Part shown: positions 5,949 through 14,932 of the stretch, in pieces
Numbering within the stretch: the first letter of the stretch is position 1
Layout: each line of letters starts with the position of its first letter
From: Acidobacteriota bacterium
GTDB lineage: Bacteria > Acidobacteriota > Thermoanaerobaculia > Gp7-AA8
Direction: 5' to 3'
Assembly: GCA_019242175.1 (NCBI GenBank)
Contig: JAFAVZ010000250.1
Location: 1-32,257 of the forward strand
Length of the DNA stretch: 32,257 nt
Notes under the pieces: model-generated
Seen by the model: only the letters and a program-made list of their open reading frames with translations
The model's database searches: none
Told to the model about the DNA's origin: nothing
Made by a program: the position numbers and the translations under genes

Positions 5949-8108
5949 CTATCTTCCGATCACCACAAATCCTGCCCAGTAGAACGGATGCGCGTACCGT
6001 GTCTCGCGCATGAGCGCGAGCTGCGCTTCGCGTAACGCATCGGCCGGCGCGCGGCCGCGTTGCACGAGATTGCGGTGGAACGCCACGACGATGCGTCGCG
6101 CGCTGCCGGACTCGATCTTCCACTCCGTCGCGACGACTGTCGGGCAGCCGGCGAGGAAGAGCGCCCACGTCATCCCGACGAGCCCTTCCCCGGGTGCGAT
6201 GCGTCCCGTCGCCGTCTCGCAAGCGGACAGCACGACGAGGCTCGCGGTGAGATGCATCTCCATTAGCTCGCGCGCGGTGAGCTTGCCGTCGCGCAACAGG
6301 AGATGCGATTCCAGCGGCGCCGCGTCTTCGAAGATGCCGTGCGCGGCGATGTGGATGACGTCCGCTTCGCCGAGGTGTGCCTTCACTTCGCGCTCGGTCG
6401 CTTCGTCGCGCAACGTCGCGCGCGGATACAGCGCTCCAACCTCGGCCAGCTCGAGGCCGGAGTCGGGGAGGTGGCCGGCGGCGAAGAGCGAGCGATAGCG
6501 AGCGTTGGCGGCGCCGAGGCGGAGGGAGGGGGAGAGGGTGATGGCGGTGGTCTCGACGAGGTAGCGATCGTGGGCATCGATGAGCGCCGCGAACGGGACA
6601 CGCCATAGCTCGCGATCGGGAACGACGATCAGGCGTTGCGTCGGCGGCAACGCGAGCGGCGCGATGAGCAGGTCGTGCAGCTGCCGCGCGGTCGTGCGAA
6701 ACGCGAGATTGCGTTCCGCGAGCTCGCGCGCGAAGCGGTTTGCGAGCGCGGCGACGGCGGCTGGTGTCGCATCGATCGTCACGATGCGCAATTGCGGGAG
6801 CACGAATGCGAACACCTTCGACTCCGTGATCGCGAACTCCACCGCCGGTCCGTCGGGCAACGCGCCGGAGGGAACGACATCGCGCAACGCGCGTGCCTTC
6901 GCCCGTTCCGCGACCTCCAACGCCGCGGCCGCGTCACCGCGTGCCGCGTGCAGCTCGATGAGCTGCAGATATGGATACACCTCGCCCTCGAAGAACAGCT
7001 GCCGCGATTCCCGCCCGCCCGCCACCCGCGTCCGCGTTCGTTCGATCGCCTCGACCGCATCCCCGAATGCCGTGCGCGCCGCGGCTTCGTCGCCCAGCTC
7101 GCGATACGCGGCGCCCGCGAGCGATCGCGCCTGCGCGAACGTATCCAGCTGCCCCGCCCCGGCGGCCCGTTCCGCCGCCTCGGTCGCGAGGCGTGCGGCG
7201 TCGCGAGCGCGCCCTTCCGCGCGGCGCAGCTTCGCGCGATACGCGAGCACGACCGGCAGCGATCCGGCGTCCCCCTTCGTCTCGACGATCTTCTGGCTCG
7301 CATCGAAGTCGCGCGCCGCGCCGCGGAGATCGCCGCGTGCGAGCCGCAGATCGCCTTCGCGCAGTAGCACCGTCGCGCGCAGCAGGTCGTCGCGCGCGGA
7401 TGCATCGCGCGCCTGCTCGAGCACGCGCAACGCATCGGCGTTTTGCCCGAGCGCACGTTGTGCCTCGGAGATCGAGAGCAGCGTGCGCGCGGCGGCCGGC
7501 GATCGCAAACGCTGTTCGATGGCGAGCGCGCGACGCAGATGCGGCAACGCACGCGCAGGCTCGTTCTGCAACGCGAGCGTGAAGCCAATGTTGTGCTCCG
7601 CGGCGAGGATGCCGTCGCGATCCTTCGCCTTCTCGCTCGTCCGCAATGCGCGTTCGTACGCCGCGATCGCCCCGGCGAAGTCGGTCTCGCTCTGCGCGAC
7701 GTTGCCGAGGTTGTTCAGCAAGCGCGCGGTGAGCTTCGCGTCGCGGAAGGGGAGGGCGAGACCGCGTTGGTACTCGCCGCGCGCGCGGCGGCCGTCGGCG
7801 AACAGGTCGAAGTAGATGCGCCCGAGGTCGTTGTGCGCGCGAGCGCGGAGCGCGGGATCGTCGATGCGTTCGGCGAGGAACAAAGCCTCCGACGTGTACG
7901 AAAGCGCCGCATCGGGATCGCCGCGCATGCGGGCGACGATGCCGAGCACGTCGAGCGCCGCGGAACGCGCGCGCAGGTCTTCGCACTCGATCGACTCCGC
8001 GTGTACGCGTTGCGCGATCGCCGCGGCTTCATCGAGGCGCAACTCGTTCGTGAGCGAGATCGCGCGCTCGATGTCCACGAGCGCGGCGAGCAGGAGAAGC
8101 AGCGTCAT
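5949..8108 (-). CDS. TPR-CHAT domain protein (caspase-like cysteine peptidase fold)
   Basis: A 719-residue protein. Residues about 15-400 are tandem TPR-like helices (for example ARAHNDLGRIYFDLF, LLNNLGNVAQSETDFAGA, AYRELGDEAAARTAF). Residues about 440-719 form a CHAT domain, the caspase-like peptidase fold of separase relatives. The catalytic His and Cys are present: VIHIAAHG (His590) and VLSACETATG (Cys630). The domain closes with the usual HPFYWAGFVVIG, so an active protease is expected, with the TPRs binding a partner or substrate. The ATG at 8108 overlaps the stop of the upstream zf-HC2 gene (ATGA), placing it third in a sigma / anti-sigma / CHAT operon. The N-terminus MTLLLLLAALVD is hydrophobic but lacks basic residues, so export is uncertain. 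Longer open frame upstream overlaps the zf-HC2 gene and is not coding. Confidence 0.92.
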   Translation of the reverse strand: MTLLLLLAALVDIERAISLTNELRLDEAAAIAQRVHAESIECEDLRARSAALDVLGIVARMRGDPDAALSYTSEALFLAERIDDPALRARAHNDLGRIYFDLFADGRRARGEYQRGLALPFRDAKLTARLLNNLGNVAQSETDFAGAIAAYERALRTSEKAKDRDGILAAEHNIGFTLALQNEPARALPHLRRALAIEQRLRSPAAARTLLSISEAQRALGQNADALRVLEQARDASARDDLLRATVLLREGDLRLARGDLRGAARDFDASQKIVETKGDAGSLPVVLAYRAKLRRAEGRARDAARLATEAAERAAGAGQLDTFAQARSLAGAAYRELGDEAAARTAFGDAVEAIERTRTRVAGGRESRQLFFEGEVYPYLQLIELHAARGDAAAALEVAERAKARALRDVVPSGALPDGPAVEFAITESKVFAFVLPQLRIVTIDATPAAVAALANRFARELAERNLAFRTTARQLHDLLIAPLALPPTQRLIVVPDRELWRVPFAALIDAHDRYLVETTAITLSPSLRLGAANARYRSLFAAGHLPDSGLELAEVGALYPRATLRDEATEREVKAHLGEADVIHIAAHGIFEDAAPLESHLLLRDGKLTARELMEMHLTASLVVLSACETATGRIAPGEGLVGMTWALFLAGCPTVVATEWKIESGSARRIVVAFHRNLVQRGRAPADALREAQLALMRETRYAHPFYWAGFVVIGR

Positions 8109-8932
8109 CGCGCCGCTTGTTCGAGCGTCCGCAGGAAGCGCCGGGAGTCGGCGTTGTCGACGGCGCGCAGCTCGCGCTCCGCGGCATCGAACACGCCCGC
8201 TTCCGCGTATGCGACGCCCAGCGCGAGACTCGGCCGCGCCTCGCTGCGCTCCAGCTGCGCGAGCGCATCCGCGTGCGGCTCGTCGAGCACGAGGAACCGC
8301 GCCTCGGGCGAAGGCGGCTGCGGCGCGGTCACGATGGTCGTCGGCGTCACGGCAGTCACCTGCCACAGGAACGTCCCACCGCGCGGCAACGGCGCGGGCG
8401 GCGTCCAGCGATTCGTGTCGAGCAACGGGCTGGCGACTACGCTGCGAAACTGCGTGTCGAAGACCTCGACGCGGTAACGCGCGTCCGGCACGTCGTTCCA
8501 GGTGAACGACGGGCGGTTGTTGATCACGACGGCGCCGAGCGGCGCGAGCGGTTCCGGCGCTCCGTTCACGTGCGTCCGGCCGCGCAGGGCGAGCGTCGAC
8601 GAGCGGAGGTCGAGCGCGTATTGGGGAAGGTGCAGCTCGCGCGGCGCGGGCCGCAGCGTCAGGAACAAGGCGATGGCGATGGCGGCCGCAACCGCCACCG
8701 CAGCGGCAAGCCAGGGCCAGCGGCGCGATGCGGCCGGCTTGGCGAACGACTGCAGATCGCGCAGCTCGCGGCGGCAGCGCGCGCACTCCTCGCAGTGCGA
8801 GGCGACGATCTCGCGGCTGATCGGATCGAGCGTGCCGTCGACGAAGCCGGCCAGTTCATCGAACGACGGATGAACCGCCTCGACGTTGCCGAGGCGCTCG
8901 ATGAGGTCGCGGATCTGTTCAGGATCGGGCAT
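8105..8932 (-). CDS. Membrane zf-HC2 anti-sigma-like protein with FN3-like and TPR-like outer part
   Basis: A 275-residue protein. The cytoplasmic N-terminus carries the zinc-binding anti-sigma pattern H-x3-C-x2-C (His46, Cys50, Cys53 in SHCEECARC). A single membrane helix follows (about 72-93, WPWLAAAVAVAAAIAIALFL). The outer part has a beta-rich stretch (about 135-190, with RPSFTWNDVPDARYRVEVFD and GGTFLWQVTA) that looks like an FN3/Ig-type fold. The tail (about 225-275, LALGVAYAEAGVFDAAEREL) is like a TPR pair. This is an inside-out arrangement suited to sensing in the envelope and holding a sigma factor. It lies 36 bases downstream of the sigma-like gene and overlaps the CHAT gene by four bases. 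Anti-sigma activity is inferred from domain and position. Confidence 0.85.
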   Translation of the reverse strand: MPDPEQIRDLIERLGNVEAVHPSFDELAGFVDGTLDPISREIVASHCEECARCRRELRDLQSFAKPAASRRWPWLAAAVAVAAAIAIALFLTLRPAPRELHLPQYALDLRSSTLALRGRTHVNGAPEPLAPLGAVVINNRPSFTWNDVPDARYRVEVFDTQFRSVVASPLLDTNRWTPPAPLPRGGTFLWQVTAVTPTTIVTAPQPPSPEARFLVLDEPHADALAQLERSEARPSLALGVAYAEAGVFDAAERELRAVDNADSRRFLRTLEQAAR

Positions 8933-8968
8933 TCGTTTTCTCCCAGAGACGCGTGGGCGCGGGCCGGA

Positions 8969-9841
8969 TTACCAGCGCGCCATGCGCCTCCCGAGGCGCT
9001 CGCGCGCCGCTTTGCGAAGATTGATCACCTGTTGCCGTTTGAGGTCGAAGAGTGTGCCGATGCGATCGTCGTCGAGCGGCAGATCATTCCAGATCGCCGC
9101 CAGCTCGTCTGCCGGCATCGCCAGCGCCTGCGCGATCGCCGCCACGGACGCCACATTCGTCTGGGGAAAGAGGGCGAGTGCGCTTCCGCCTGCCTCGTCG
9201 CGAAGGTTGAGCAGGAGTGCAGCGCGTTGCCGCGGCGGGAGGCCGCCGATCTCCTGCCAGAGCTTGGTCAGGAGCTCGCGGGATTCCAGCTCCTCGAGGA
9301 TGCGCGGCGCCACGCCGATCGGCTCGAGCTCGTGCACCGCCGGCTCGTGCAGCCCGACGGCGAACATCGAGACGACCGCATGGAGCACGCGCGGCCCATG
9401 GGCGAGCAACCGTTCCAGCGACGGCGCGATGCGCTCCGGATCGAGCGGGACGTCGGAGTCGGCTGTGAGCGGCGCCCGTCCGCGGGCAGCGGCGAGTCCG
9501 CAGACGAGCTCGCGCTCGTGCTCCCAGAGCGCGAAACGGGAGTCGCGTGTGACGACGTAACGGATGCGATTTGCCAGCATCGTCCGGCGCGGATGCTTCG
9601 CGCGGATGAGGTCGTCTGCCGCGTGCAGCGTCACGATCGCCACGTAGTCGGCGAAGCTCGCGATCGGCTCGTCCTCTTCGTTCGTCAGCTTCCGGACGAG
9701 CCGTAAACGCACGGCGCCGCGCACGTCCTCGACATCCGCCTCGGTCAACAACCCGCGGCGGCGCGAGAGCGTGCGGACGATCACCGGCTCGGCGTCGGCG
9801 AGGAGTTGCTCGAGGTCGCGCCGATCGTGCGACAGCGGCAT
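8969..9841 (-). CDS. RNA polymerase sigma-70-like (ECF-type) factor with an expanded C-terminal region
   Basis: A 290-residue protein from the ATG at 9841. Its N-terminal half resembles sigma region 2 (EADVEDVRGAVRLRLVRKL, then SFADYVAIVTLHAADDLIRAKHPRR, the pattern of the core-binding and -10 helices). Region 4 starts normally at LPPRQRAALLLNLRD, but a spacer of about 56 residues separates this from the final helix QQVINLRKAARERLGRR, whereas ordinary ECF factors join these parts within about 20. Between regions 2 and 4 there is also a longer linker (about 120-180). The start is uncertain: in-frame ATGs exist upstream (beyond 9942), but they would overlap the divergent receptor gene. It is first of a three-gene operon with the zf-HC2 protein and the CHAT protein. 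Confidence 0.75.
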   Translation of the reverse strand: MPLSHDRRDLEQLLADAEPVIVRTLSRRRGLLTEADVEDVRGAVRLRLVRKLTNEEDEPIASFADYVAIVTLHAADDLIRAKHPRRTMLANRIRYVVTRDSRFALWEHERELVCGLAAARGRAPLTADSDVPLDPERIAPSLERLLAHGPRVLHAVVSMFAVGLHEPAVHELEPIGVAPRILEELESRELLTKLWQEIGGLPPRQRAALLLNLRDEAGGSALALFPQTNVASVAAIAQALAMPADELAAIWNDLPLDDDRIGTLFDLKRQQVINLRKAARERLGRRMARW

Positions 9842-9941: not shown

Positions 9942-12863
9942 ATGCGCTCCATCGCCGCATCGCTTCTGCTTCTGCTGCTCGTCGCCGCGGCGGCTTTCGG
10001 GCAGGCCACGACGGGCAATCTCAACGGCCGCGTCATCGCGCAAGGCGAGCCCGTGGCGGGCGTCACGGTGACGATCACCTCGCGTTCGCTACAGGGCACA
10101 CGCACGTTTCTCACGACGACGGACGGCACGTACCTCTTTCCGTCCCTCCCGCCCGGCGGCTACACCGTCACGTTCGAGATGACCGGACTGCAGACGGCCG
10201 TGAAAAGCGCCGAGCTGCACCTCTCCGAAACCACGCGCGTCGACATCGAGCTCCGTCCGCTGCTGACCGAAACGATCTCGGTCACGCCGGCGGGCAACTC
10301 GGTGCTGGAGACGCCGCAAGTCGCGATGAACATCGACGCGCGCACGCTCGAGTACCTGCCGATCGGGCGGGGGATCCTCGACGCGGTGCGCATCGCGCCG
10401 GGCGTGCAGCCGACCGGGCCGAACAACCAGCTGATGATCAACGGCGGCTACTCGTACGACAACCTCTACCTCGTGAATGGCGTCACCGTGAACGAGCCGA
10501 CGCGCGGTCAGCCGCATAACCTCTTCATCGAAGACGCGATTCAGGAGCTGACGGTCGTCACGGCCGCGGTCTCGGCGGAGTACGGCCGCTTCACGGGCGG
10601 CGTCGTGAACGTGCTCACGCGTTCCGGCGGCAACGAGTTGAGCGGATCCGTGCGCGACACGCTGAGCAGCGACGACTGGGCCGCGCGCTCACCATTCGTG
10701 AACGAGCCGGAGCATCTCGACAAGATCAACAACGACTATCAGGCCACGCTCGGCGGGCGCATCCTGCGCGATCGGCTGTGGTTCTTCCTCGCCGGCCGTT
10801 ACGCGGAGCGCACGAAGGCGGCGGCGACGGTCGGGACGTTCATCCCGTACGCGGATGCGAATCACGAGGCGCGTTACGAAGCGAAGCTCACGGCGAACCT
10901 CAGCCAGCAGCACACGCTCGTCGGCTCGTACATGAACATCAACTCCGCCTCGCTCAACACGAGCATCGGCGCCGGCGAGCTGGACGTGCTGGAGAATCGC
11001 AAGCAGCCGAACTCCATCGGCTCGCTGCACTACACCGGCGTTTTCTCCCAGAACTTCGTGGGCGAGGCGCAGTTCCATCGGAAGTTCTTCGCTTTCGAAG
11101 CGACGAATCCGACGGAACGCGACCGCGTCTCCGGAACGGTGGTCATCGACAACAACCTCTCGGGGCAATTCAACTCGCCGGTGTTCTGCTACACGTGCGG
11201 CAACAACCAGCGGAACAATCGCGATGTGCAATTGAAGGGCACGTGGTTCGTGGCGCCGCCCCACGCCGGCAATCACAACGTCGTTTTCGGCTACGACGAC
11301 TACCACGAGAACGCGATCGATAACGTGCATCAGTCGCCGAGCGACTTCTCGATTTACTCCGACGTGTTGATCGTCGGCCAGAAAGGTTTCCTGCATGCGG
11401 TGCCGTTCGAAACGGAGCTCGAGCTCGATGCCGTGCGCACTCCAAAGAGCGCCAGCGACTACGCCACGCGCTCGTATTTCGTGAACGACCGCATCGACTT
11501 CGGTGCGCATCTCTCCGCGAACGTCGGGCTGCGCTACGACAGCACGCGCGGCGAAGACCAGTTCGGCTTCACGCAAGCGAAAGACGCCGGCCTCGCCCCG
11601 CGCCTCGGTCTCATCTACGACATCGCCGGCAACGGGCGCGATCGCATCAGCGCGAGCTACAGCGTGTACAGCTCGCGCGCGCAGGAACGGATCGGCGCCT
11701 CCTCCTCCGGACTCTTCGGCCAGACGATGATCTGGCTCTACAGCGGGCCGGAGATCAACGACGATCCGGCCAATCTCATCCCGATGCGGGAGGTCGTGCG
11801 GCGCATCTTCCAGTGGTTCGATGCGAACGGCGGCGTGAATAACGAAGACGATCTCGAGTTCCGCAGCGCGTCCGGTGAGTACGAGATCCCGCGCAAGCTG
11901 AAGACGCCGGGCATGGACGAGATCGCGATCGGCTACGGACACCAATTCGGCCAACGCGCGTTCGTGCGCGCCGACTTCGTCAAACGCGCGTGGCACGACT
12001 TCTACACGCTCGCCGTCGATCGCAACAGCGGGAAGAAGATCGACAGCGCCGGCACGGTGCAGGATCGCGTGAGCATCCGCACCGATGACGGGACGCTGCA
12101 GCGCGACTACCAGGGCGTCGTGCTGCAGGCCGGCGCCAACTGGCGACGCGTCACCGCTGGCGGCAACTACACGTGGTCGAAGTTGCGCGGGAACATCGAG
12201 CAGGAGAGCGCCGGCTCGGGGTCCGTCGCGGTGCAACCGGCCGGCGCGTATTACCCGGAGTTCACGTCCTACGCGCAGTACCAGCCGGAGGGATACCTCG
12301 CCGGCGACGTGCGCCATCGCGCGAATGCGTGGCTCGGCTACGAGCTGCCCACGGCGATCGGCCGCTTCAATTTCTCACTGCTGCAGCAGTACCACAGCGC
12401 GATGAGCTACAACGCCACGGCACTCATCAACGTGCGCAACGTGATCCCCAATCCGGGCTACGTCACGCCGCCCTCCACGCGCACGTATTTCTTCGCACCG
12501 CGCGGATCGCTGCGTCTCGATTCCGTGACGTCGACCGGTCTCGGCATCAACTACGCGCGCCGCTTCGCGACGTACGAATGGTTCGCCGAAGCCGACGTTC
12601 GGAATGTGTTCGGAGAACAGGCGATCGAGAATCCGAGCGGGATCAACGCCGTCGTGCGGACGAACAGCAGCGACCGCAATCTCGCGCAGTTCGATCCGAA
12701 CAAGACGGCGCCCGTCGCCTGTCCGCAGAACGTCGCTACGTCGTCCGCGCAATGCCGCGGCATCGCGAACTACCAACTCTCGCCCACGTTCGGACAGGTG
12801 ACGAACGCCGGCGCCTATCAGGAGCCGAGAACGTACGGCTTCTCTCTCGGACTGCGTTTCTGA
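9942..12863 (+). CDS. TonB-dependent receptor with N-terminal carboxypeptidase-regulatory-like domain (Oar-like)
   Basis: A 973-residue outer-membrane protein. The signal peptide is MRSIAASLLLLLLVAAAAFG-Q. Residues about 25-105 are a carboxypeptidase-regulatory-like beta sandwich (GNLNGRVIAQGEPVAGVTVTI ... GTYLFPSLPPGGYTV). A plug domain follows (about 120-230, with NQLMINGGYSYDNLYLVNG and SAEYGRFTGGVVNVLTRSG). The rest is a long beta-barrel of alternating strands ending in the aromatic terminus GFSLGLRF expected for BAM-dependent insertion. Such receptors import large ligands such as oligosaccharides, peptides or metal chelates, or act in outer-membrane interactions; the ligand is not evident. 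Two cysteine pairs (FCYTCGN and ACPQ...QCRG) could form loop disulfides, which fits the thioredoxin-like gene that follows after 11 bases. The start is fixed by the signal peptide and GGGGGA. Confidence 0.93.
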   Translation: MRSIAASLLLLLLVAAAAFGQATTGNLNGRVIAQGEPVAGVTVTITSRSLQGTRTFLTTTDGTYLFPSLPPGGYTVTFEMTGLQTAVKSAELHLSETTRVDIELRPLLTETISVTPAGNSVLETPQVAMNIDARTLEYLPIGRGILDAVRIAPGVQPTGPNNQLMINGGYSYDNLYLVNGVTVNEPTRGQPHNLFIEDAIQELTVVTAAVSAEYGRFTGGVVNVLTRSGGNELSGSVRDTLSSDDWAARSPFVNEPEHLDKINNDYQATLGGRILRDRLWFFLAGRYAERTKAAATVGTFIPYADANHEARYEAKLTANLSQQHTLVGSYMNINSASLNTSIGAGELDVLENRKQPNSIGSLHYTGVFSQNFVGEAQFHRKFFAFEATNPTERDRVSGTVVIDNNLSGQFNSPVFCYTCGNNQRNNRDVQLKGTWFVAPPHAGNHNVVFGYDDYHENAIDNVHQSPSDFSIYSDVLIVGQKGFLHAVPFETELELDAVRTPKSASDYATRSYFVNDRIDFGAHLSANVGLRYDSTRGEDQFGFTQAKDAGLAPRLGLIYDIAGNGRDRISASYSVYSSRAQERIGASSSGLFGQTMIWLYSGPEINDDPANLIPMREVVRRIFQWFDANGGVNNEDDLEFRSASGEYEIPRKLKTPGMDEIAIGYGHQFGQRAFVRADFVKRAWHDFYTLAVDRNSGKKIDSAGTVQDRVSIRTDDGTLQRDYQGVVLQAGANWRRVTAGGNYTWSKLRGNIEQESAGSGSVAVQPAGAYYPEFTSYAQYQPEGYLAGDVRHRANAWLGYELPTAIGRFNFSLLQQYHSAMSYNATALINVRNVIPNPGYVTPPSTRTYFFAPRGSLRLDSVTSTGLGINYARRFATYEWFAEADVRNVFGEQAIENPSGINAVVRTNSSDRNLAQFDPNKTAPVACPQNVATSSAQCRGIANYQLSPTFGQVTNAGAYQEPRTYGFSLGLRF

Positions 12864-12874
12864 GGAGCCAATCC

Positions 12875-14932
12875 ATGCGCAAGATCGTCGCTTTGCTGCT
12901 GTTCACGGTGGCCTTCGCGGCGCACGCGGAGGATCTCGACAAGATGCGGGCGCTCTTCGCGCAGAACGACTGGGAAGGCGTGCTGCACGAGCCGATGCCC
13001 ACGTCGACGGAAGGCCGCGCATTGCGCATCCTGGCGTTGCATTCGGCGTGGATCAACGGCCAGGCGAAACGCGAGGCGGCTGCGCTGGCGCAAGACGCGC
13101 CGAACGATCCGTGGTCGTTCGCCATCCAGGCGGCGGAGCTCAGCAGTACTCCCGGCAAGTCCGTGGAAGTGCTCGCATTGTCCGAGAAGATGATGGCCGC
13201 GGCGCCGAAGCCGATCCCTGCGCGGCTGCTCCATCAGCACATCCTCGCGCTCCGCGAGAACAGCAAGTTGGACCAGGCAGCGGTGTTCATCGGCGACGAT
13301 CGCCTCGAAAAGGCGGATCTCCTGACTTCGCGCTCGTCGGTCGAGAGAAAACCGGAGCTGGTCGATCAGGCGATCGCCACGCTCGAGGAGCTGCGCAAGA
13401 ACGATCCGCACGACATCGCCGGCCGCCTCCGTCTCGCCGGTCTGCTCGGACGCGGGCGGAAGCAGTGGGACAAGGCGCTCGATGTGAATCGCGAGGCGGC
13501 CGCGCTGACGCCGTCTCTGCGCGTGCACAACGCGTTGTGGGACACGATCAACGCGCAGCGGAACATGACCGCGGAACAGAAGCTCGCCGCGATCGAGGCC
13601 GACATGCAGACGCTGCCCGCCGATCGACGCGACTGGACCGAGACCCGGCTCTTCGTCGCGCGCCAATACCGCAAGCTGAAGCTCGACACGAAGGCCGCGG
13701 AGATCGAAGACGCGTTGCTGCGTGAGACCCCGGATTCGTACGCCGTCGAACAGATTCTCTGGGCTCGCATCAACGACGCGGATCACGACGGCGGCGAGCG
13801 CATGCTGGAGGAAAAAGCGGCGAAGCGCAAGCTGCTCCAGGAATTCGTCAGCAGGCCGCACTTCGATGATCCGATGCTTCGGGCGAGCGGCTATCAGCAA
13901 CTTTTCTACAGTTTCAAGGAAGATCCTGCGGCGGCCACGGACCGTCAGCTGCTGGAGTCTGCGAAAGGGATGGAACCTGTGGGTGAGGAGACCCTGGTTC
14001 AATCGTTCGTGGACATCGCGCGGGTCTTGGCCGACCGCAGGATCGAGTTGGATTACGCGGAGAGGATGGCGCGCAAGGCAATCGCCGGCGCAGCGGTGGC
14101 CATCGAAGAAGACCGCCGCCTCGGCGGCATCGATCCGGCCGATCAGGCGAAGTACGAAGGGTATACGAACGGCAATGTTCACGACGCCCTCGGCTGGGTG
14201 CTGTTGCAGAAAGGCGAGCTCGCCGCTGCAAACAAGGAATTGCTGGCGGCCTACGATCTGTGGCCGGACAACGCCGGCATCGTCTATCACCTCGGCGTCT
14301 ATCAGGAACGCCGCGGCTCGCTCGCTCGCGCCGAGGAGTGGTACCGCAAGGGAGCGCTGCTGCAGAGCGCGACGAAGAACCAGAGCCAGGACGCGCTGAA
14401 GGCGCTCTACAAGAAGCGGAACGGATCGCTGAAGGGCTACGAGGCCTACCTCGCGACGCTCAAAGACAAAGACGCGAACGCGCGTCGCACGAAAGTGCTC
14501 GGCACGAAGGTCAAGACGCCGAAGCCGGCGCCGGCTTTCGCGCTCGCGACGCTCGGCGGCTACAAGCGCTCGCTGCAGGACTATCGCGGCAAAGTTGCGG
14601 TCATCAACTTCTGGGGTGTTTGGTGCGGTTGGTGCGTCCGCGAGATGCCCGACTATCAGGCGCTGGTGAAGAAGTACAAAGACGATCCGAAGGTCGCGGT
14701 GCTCACCATCAACAACGACACCGATCTCGACAAGGTGCGGAAGTGGATGAAGGACCACAAGTACGACTTCGACGTCCTGCTCGACGACGGCTGGGTCGGG
14801 AAGCAGTCGCTGCACTCGTTTCCAACGACGTGGTTCATCGATCCGAAAGGGCGGATCGCCTTCGAGAAACGCGGCTGGAGCGAGAAGCTGGTGGAGGAGT
14901 TCAGCTGGCGGATCGATGCGCTGAAGCAGTGA
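12875..14932 (+). CDS. Exported TPR protein with C-terminal thioredoxin (TlpA/ResA-like) domain
   Basis: A 685-residue protein. The signal peptide MRKIVALLLFTVAFAAHA-E is followed by about 500 residues of TPR-like helices (for example DIAGRLRLAGLLGRG and NVHDALGWVLLQKGELAAANKELL). The thioredoxin-fold domain spans about 545-685: APAFALATLGG, NFWGVWCGWCVREMPDY with the redox pair Cys584-Cys587, and the cis-proline segment FPTTWFIDPKG. TlpA/ResA-like proteins reduce or exchange disulfides outside the cytoplasm; the TPR part probably docks the client. GAGGAG at the receptor stop precedes the ATG at 12875, which lies 11 bases after that stop, so the two are one operon. A role in maturing disulfides in the receptor is plausible but unproven. 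The guanine deaminase gene follows after 10 bases. Confidence 0.9.
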   Translation: MRKIVALLLFTVAFAAHAEDLDKMRALFAQNDWEGVLHEPMPTSTEGRALRILALHSAWINGQAKREAAALAQDAPNDPWSFAIQAAELSSTPGKSVEVLALSEKMMAAAPKPIPARLLHQHILALRENSKLDQAAVFIGDDRLEKADLLTSRSSVERKPELVDQAIATLEELRKNDPHDIAGRLRLAGLLGRGRKQWDKALDVNREAAALTPSLRVHNALWDTINAQRNMTAEQKLAAIEADMQTLPADRRDWTETRLFVARQYRKLKLDTKAAEIEDALLRETPDSYAVEQILWARINDADHDGGERMLEEKAAKRKLLQEFVSRPHFDDPMLRASGYQQLFYSFKEDPAAATDRQLLESAKGMEPVGEETLVQSFVDIARVLADRRIELDYAERMARKAIAGAAVAIEEDRRLGGIDPADQAKYEGYTNGNVHDALGWVLLQKGELAAANKELLAAYDLWPDNAGIVYHLGVYQERRGSLARAEEWYRKGALLQSATKNQSQDALKALYKKRNGSLKGYEAYLATLKDKDANARRTKVLGTKVKTPKPAPAFALATLGGYKRSLQDYRGKVAVINFWGVWCGWCVREMPDYQALVKKYKDDPKVAVLTINNDTDLDKVRKWMKDHKYDFDVLLDDGWVGKQSLHSFPTTWFIDPKGRIAFEKRGWSEKLVEEFSWRIDALKQ

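Follow-up and report, generated by a model that had tools for sequence, protein, structure and literature searches.

The 32,257-nucleotide stretch of Acidobacteriota DNA analysed here (contig JAFAVZ010000250.1 of assembly GCA_019242175.1; hereafter the window) carries, between positions 5949 and 9841, an operon of three minus-strand genes encoding an extracytoplasmic function (ECF)-like sigma factor, a membrane-bound zf-HC2 anti-sigma factor and a tetratricopeptide repeat (TPR) protein ending in a CHAT cysteine peptidase. The same trio is found repeatedly in Acidobacteriota and also in some Verrucomicrobia. We propose, with about an even chance of being right, that it forms a three-part transmembrane switch, i.e. 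a split form of the regulator DdvA of Myxococcus, in which a free CHAT protease would engage, and most likely cut, the anti-sigma factor outside the cytoplasm. An earlier reading made from the sequence alone (the sequence-only reading) had described three genes tightly placed on one strand; the open reading frames were confirmed there, and the stop codon of the anti-sigma gene overlaps the start codon of the CHAT gene in an ATGA (Table 1).

The sequence-only reading had also taken the tie of a CHAT protease to a sigma/zf-HC2 pair as the mark of a system, a view that could not be held if CHAT homologues rarely lay near such genes. When checked across genomes, the three families co-occurred strongly in all linkage counts. 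The genome of the window holds 16 CHAT loci, 59 sigma70-ECF matches (E <=0.01) and 14 zf-HC2 matches, and an ECF sigma gene lies within about 3.3 kb of 12 of the 16 CHAT genes, against an expectation of 7% per locus for an ECF sigma within 4 kb (binomial p 1.2e-11). Two paralogous operons of this genome (loci L020 and L021) have the identical gene order and ATGA overlap and homologous sigma and anti-sigma genes, and at four further loci zf-HC2, transmembrane (TM) helix, TPR and CHAT are found in one chain encoded directly after an ECF sigma gene (fusions L011_7, L013_2, L015_2 and L016_2, at L011:4796-8053, L013:3651-6827, L015:2606-5725 and L016:1625-4864). When loci of this genome and of relatives of its class were pooled (80 CHAT genes), sigma genes made up 40 of the 270 CHAT neighbours at distance 1-2 (~15%) versus 1 of 303 at distance >=5 (0.3%; p 4e-13).

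Searching species-representative genomes more widely with the window CHAT and its closest homologues yielded 79 loci selected by CHAT alone, most of them from Acidobacteriota and a few under the labels Verrucomicrobia, Fimbriimonadaceae, Planctomycetota or Acidimicrobiia; these labels are those of the records, where binning errors of metagenome-assembled genomes are possible. In 34 of these loci a sigma gene stands at distance 2 from CHAT, and in 33 a zf-HC2 gene is its direct neighbour, with neither kind beyond distance 4, and nearly all of the sigmas belong to the unusual family of the window sigma (E down to 7e-85). From the CHAT-query loci and from loci selected by sigma, 42 distinct triads were assembled, all with a sigma of this family; the sigma and anti-sigma genes face the CHAT gene convergently in most, and the genes are codirectional in some and divergent in a few. 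Since the adjacency survives these changes of orientation, it argues for a functional link rather than for an inherited operon.

To which part of the anti-sigma factor the protease is tied was addressed by partial Mantel tests on sequence distances of 36 of the 42 triads, because a few were truncated or shared a CHAT gene. As such tests on related sequences can be anticonservative, i.e. overstate significance, the contrast between the two halves of the anti-sigma factor counts more than the p values: once sigma and the cytoplasmic part are controlled for, the outer region correlates with CHAT (partial r 0.55, p 0.001), whereas the cytoplasmic part correlates with sigma (0.30, p 0.003) and not with CHAT (0.02, p 0.41). 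The 56-residue tail alone, compared with the CHAT catalytic domain given sigma, gave a partial r of 0.50, and the 47-residue zinc-finger segment alone gave 0.19 with CHAT (p 0.10). This pattern is the one expected if zf-HC2 meets sigma inside the cell and the outer region, made of a fibronectin type III (FN3)-like domain and a TPR-like tail, meets CHAT outside.

The location of the protease, for which the sequence-only reading had offered both sides of the membrane, could be narrowed for the family. A signal-peptide-like N-terminus, called by a simple hydrophobicity heuristic of our own in place of a trained predictor and dependent on predicted start codons, was found in 58 of 72 sigma-linked non-fused CHAT proteins versus 4 of 88 sigmas and ~40% of the other genes at the same loci; it is clear in the L020 and L021 paralogues. 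In ten fusions the sole TM-like helix sits between zf-HC2 and CHAT, which places CHAT outside, with the caveat that the charge bias across this helix is not uniform. The export-like N-termini and the outer-half covariation thus favour an extracytoplasmic CHAT that would act on the anti-sigma factor from outside. The window copy itself is ambiguous, and its export is plausible.

The peptidase is the best defined of the three proteins. Profile searches recognised its CHAT domain (PF12770, E 2.8e-61 to 5.4e-61) and its repeats (TPR_12, E 1.2e-19), and the proposed dyad, which had been described as apparently active, lies in the expected motifs (His590 within HIAAHG, Cys630 within LSACET) and is invariant among 33 homologues, so that peptidase activity is probably under selection. 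Its AlphaFold2 (AF2) model, built with a homologue alignment, has a predicted local distance difference test score (pLDDT) of 91.7. Searched with Foldseek, this model retrieved Csx29 first by E-value (3.3e-16) and DdvA (8rot, 8rw5) at E 9e-15 to 3e-14; the TM-score of DdvA (TMq 0.58-0.59) is the best among bacterial matches and is equalled only by apo separase, which also ranks high by E-value. The NCBIfam model of Csx29 scored the window protein at 26 bits against a cut-off of 300, which leaves it outside the Csx29 family.

The assignments of the anti-sigma and sigma factors are each weak for the window protein alone and become firm with homologues included. The zf-HC2 match of the window anti-sigma factor (E 9e-4 to 1.1e-3) is under the cut-off of Pfam; the domain is detected in 31 of 37 homologues, the residues H46, C50 and C53 of the zinc motif HxxxCxxC are kept in >=90% of homologues, and the homologue profile matches ChrR and RsiW. 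The zinc motif and TM helix that characterise zf-HC2 class anti-sigma factors are both present in the window protein. Its AF2 model, made with a homologue alignment (pLDDT 89.8), comprises the zinc-finger domain, a single TM helix (residues 73-92), a beta domain with FN3 matches in Foldseek and a four-helix TPR-like tail, in agreement with the outer FN3-like region and TPR-like tail suggested earlier. The window sigma matches TIGR02937 (sigma70-ECF) under the cut-off (E 1.4e-6), and its homologues match Sigma70_r2 and Sigma70_r4. The domain labels of the sequence-only reading therefore hold with homologues, and need correcting in two respects: the window anti-sigma factor has a single zinc-finger copy, many relatives having two, and the sigma comes from a long, atypical ECF family, with sigma-2, a linker of ~100 residues, a sigma-4 containing an insertion, and a C-terminal RQQVINLRKxARERLxRR. 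Of 396 genomes sampled from the phylum, 21 contain this family, and CHAT is absent at some of the loci concerned. Part of the sigma linker (profile positions 174-218) gave a profile match to the N-terminal domain of the RNA polymerase delta subunit (E 0.002-0.004); PF05066 (HARE-HTH) had no match in the genome of the window and none at the sigma loci of the other genomes tested, and a delta-like HARE-HTH domain in the linker may be retained as a lead.

According to the switch that we propose, the zf-HC2 domain of the membrane anti-sigma factor would hold the ECF sigma in the cytoplasm, as family knowledge suggests, while its FN3 and TPR outer region would face the periplasm and be engaged there by the TPR-CHAT protein. 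On a signal, the Cys-His dyad of CHAT would most likely cut the anti-sigma factor in its outer or juxtamembrane portion, in a site-1-like manner, and the cut would lead to sigma release and transcription of the sigma regulon, the direction being presumably activating rather than inhibiting. Cleavage of the anti-sigma factor by CHAT is what we infer from these elements. Regulated proteolysis of anti-sigma factors is known from the action of DegS and RseP on RseA and of signal peptidase on RsiP, DegS and signal peptidase being serine proteases. The window operon shares with these systems a membrane anti-sigma factor with a periplasmic region, sigma release by an outside cut being a proposed analogy; unlike DegS and signal peptidase, the candidate protease is a clan CD cysteine peptidase encoded beside its putative substrate.

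The closest architecture is that of DdvA (PDB 8ROT, 8RW5), which is deposited as a transmembrane anti-sigma factor and whose sequence entry is a CHAT domain-containing protein: this ECF anti-sigma factor joins in a single chain a zf-HC2-type N-terminus, a TM helix, TPR and CHAT. Our anti-sigma homologue profile matches its zinc-finger/TM region (8rot_B residues 7-110, E 2.2e-5), and DdvA keeps His and Cys at the dyad positions (ATHG, LAACEG). DdvA is the anti-sigma factor of the ECF sigma DdvS, which is active once DdvA is inactivated, by a signal that was unknown in the 2015 paper (PMC4374960). In the window, by contrast, anti-sigma factor and CHAT are two proteins, the former adds the FN3 domain and a TPR-like tail of its own, and the sigma belongs to the atypical long family; the operon can be described as a putative switch of the DdvA kind, split so that the CHAT protease is free. 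The four fusions of the same genome have the one-chain architecture of DdvA and are closer counterparts to it than the window operon.

In type III-E CRISPR systems, the TPR-CHAT protease Csx29 was experimentally found to cut Csx30, an inhibitor of the ECF sigma CASP-sigma, the three being encoded together (PMC10028731). There, target RNA activates Csx29, which acts with Cas7-11, the description of Csx30 makes no mention of a zf-HC2 membrane protein (PMC10028731), and the whole works inside the cell, whereas most CHAT proteins of the window family carry export signals. By eye, no cas gene was recognised among the predicted genes of the window and none resembling Cas7-11 beside the operon, no dedicated cas/CRISPR search of the window or genome having been made. 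Beyond the likeness to Csx29, nothing at the locus speaks for the analogy to CHAT effectors of antiviral defence that had been suggested. For ECF54, CHAT-domain proteins lie in the conserved neighbourhood and proteolytic control was proposed, the group being said to lack an anti-sigma factor (PMC8999054); compared by description, the module of the window and of the triads differs in that a zf-HC2 anti-sigma gene adjoins the sigma gene. No paper on the exact module was found in the open literature, to which the search was limited, and this is weak evidence of novelty. Generalised to a widespread signalling module, found in Acidobacteriota and part of the Verrucomicrobia, whose free exported caspase-like CHAT would serve in trans as the site-1 protease of a membrane anti-sigma factor, the proposal is more tentative and stands somewhat short of even; such a module would be DdvA in split form and would correspond, outside the cell, to the Csx29/Csx30/CASP-sigma switch.

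Several observations weigh against the proteolytic switch, besides the possible overstatement of the Mantel significance. The N-terminus of the window CHAT protein, MTLLLLLAALVDIERA, is hydrophobic, contains no basic residues, shows no clear cleavage site and is merged by AF2 into the first TPR helix; in the variable, proline-rich linker of the anti-sigma homologues no conserved cleavage motif was seen; a promoter motif common to the upstream regions of sigma and CHAT genes was looked for, and no dyad exceeded shuffled sequences. Moreover, 5 of 15 sigma-selected loci have the anti-sigma outer region without an adjoining CHAT; in a test among the sigma-selected loci of whether CHAT neighbours are confined to anti-sigma factors with the outer region, the association of tail and CHAT (p 0.005 by locus) fell to p 0.26 with clades collapsed and is given no weight. 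Loci where a full anti-sigma factor lacks a CHAT neighbour, so that CHAT is not always required beside it, suit the view that the TPR-CHAT protein, once exported, attaches to the FN3/TPR region and serves there as sensor or co-inhibitor, its peptidase targeting other envelope proteins or only itself. The outer-region covariation proves association only and TPR solenoids are typical binding scaffolds. This non-proteolytic partnership is an unlikely but serious alternative; the invariance of the Cys-His dyad in 33 homologues is against it.

Somewhat less probable still is that CHAT is an output of the system, namely an envelope or stress protease controlled by the sigma and placed beside its regulator just for co-expression. 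In the window and its paralogues the genes do look like one operon, the sigma gene being followed by the anti-sigma and CHAT genes with ATGA overlaps; in most triads, however, the CHAT gene is convergent with the other two, which precludes co-transcription, the shared promoter motif was not found upstream of sigma and CHAT genes, and co-regulation would predict neither a covariation restricted to the outer half nor the zf-HC2-TM-TPR-CHAT fusions. An intracellular CHAT cutting the cytoplasmic part of the anti-sigma factor, as Csx29 does with Csx30, has a published precedent in which the same three functions come together (PMC10028731), and the best Foldseek E-value of Csx29 and the weak export signal of the window copy would agree with it; we nevertheless consider it improbable, given the export signals in most of the family, the position of CHAT beyond the TM helix in fusions and the lack of covariation between CHAT and the cytoplasmic half. 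Finally, some CHAT genes lack a nearby sigma and sigmas of the window family can occur without CHAT, as would be seen if the trio were chance neighbours without functional link in a genome with many CHAT and sigma genes; against this stand all linkage statistics, on which chance co-occurrence was rejected, together with the several gene orders and the fusions, and we give it almost no credence.

Table 1. Features of the sigma/anti-sigma/TPR-CHAT operon, in window coordinates.
Feature	Position	Strand	Evidence
ECF-like sigma factor	8969..9841	-	TIGR02937 E 1.4e-6; homologues match Sigma70_r2/r4
Membrane anti-sigma factor: zf-HC2, one TM helix, FN3-like outer domain, TPR-like tail	8105..8932	-	domain matches, AF2 model, Foldseek
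zf-HC2 motif H46-C50-C53, predicted cytoplasmic anti-sigma domain	8771..8854	-	zf-HC2 match; kept in anti-sigma homologue profile
Single TM helix, anti-sigma residues 73-92	8657..8716	-	sequence and AF2 model
FN3-like outer domain, anti-sigma residues 128-215	8288..8551	-	AF2 model, Foldseek; covaries with CHAT given sigma
TPR-like helical outer tail, anti-sigma residues 218-274	8111..8281	-	AF2 model; covaries with CHAT catalytic domain given sigma
TPR-CHAT cysteine peptidase, 719 aa	5949..8108	-	PF12770 and TPR_12 matches; AF2 model
N-terminal hydrophobic stretch TLLLLLAALV of the CHAT protein, short, signal-peptide-like, ambiguous	8076..8105	-	hydrophobicity test
TPR solenoid of the CHAT protein	6876..8075	-	TPR_12 match; AF2 model
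CHAT catalytic domain	5952..6695	-	PF12770
Predicted catalytic His590 codon	6339..6341	-	motif; invariant in 33 homologues
Predicted catalytic Cys630 codon	6219..6221	-	motif; invariant in 33 homologues

Genes for a TonB-type receptor and a TPR-thioredoxin protein occupy positions 9942-14932 of the window, between the sigma gene and an amidohydrolase gene. The divergent TonB receptor was rejected as a part of the module because in the relative RYN_27 the syntenic sigma gene lies directly beside the amidohydrolase gene, without the receptor and thioredoxin genes. Other loci hold further observations. Beside the fusion gene of L011, the gene at L011:8066-9685 has a second caspase-like motif pair (VTFSGH ... 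SDSCHSG), so that one operon may encode two clan CD proteases. Two pairs of proteins of unknown function that look alike by eye are encoded immediately downstream of CHAT genes (L013:2877-3632 with L015:5738-6490, and L012:7034-8110 with L023:6280-7332). A different recurrent set of four genes, encoding a short sigma, a zf-HC2 protein, a protein of ~290 residues and a CHAT protein of ~812 residues, is found at L076, L094, L098 and L105, and the TPR protein of L262:5181-6824, which has an export-like N-terminus and lacks a CHAT domain, is encoded near a sigma/anti-sigma pair of the window family without CHAT neighbour.

If the proposed switch is correct, caspase-like proteases would join the group of proteases relaying signals across the bacterial envelope. 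The module would then be a testable form of DdvA with a free protease (for DdvA itself, the 2015 paper gave the inactivating signal as unknown) and would suggest a cellular, non-CRISPR counterpart of the protease-plus-sigma logic of type III-E systems. The many genomes that hold the trio, some of them with several paralogous triads, offer material for genetic and structural work.

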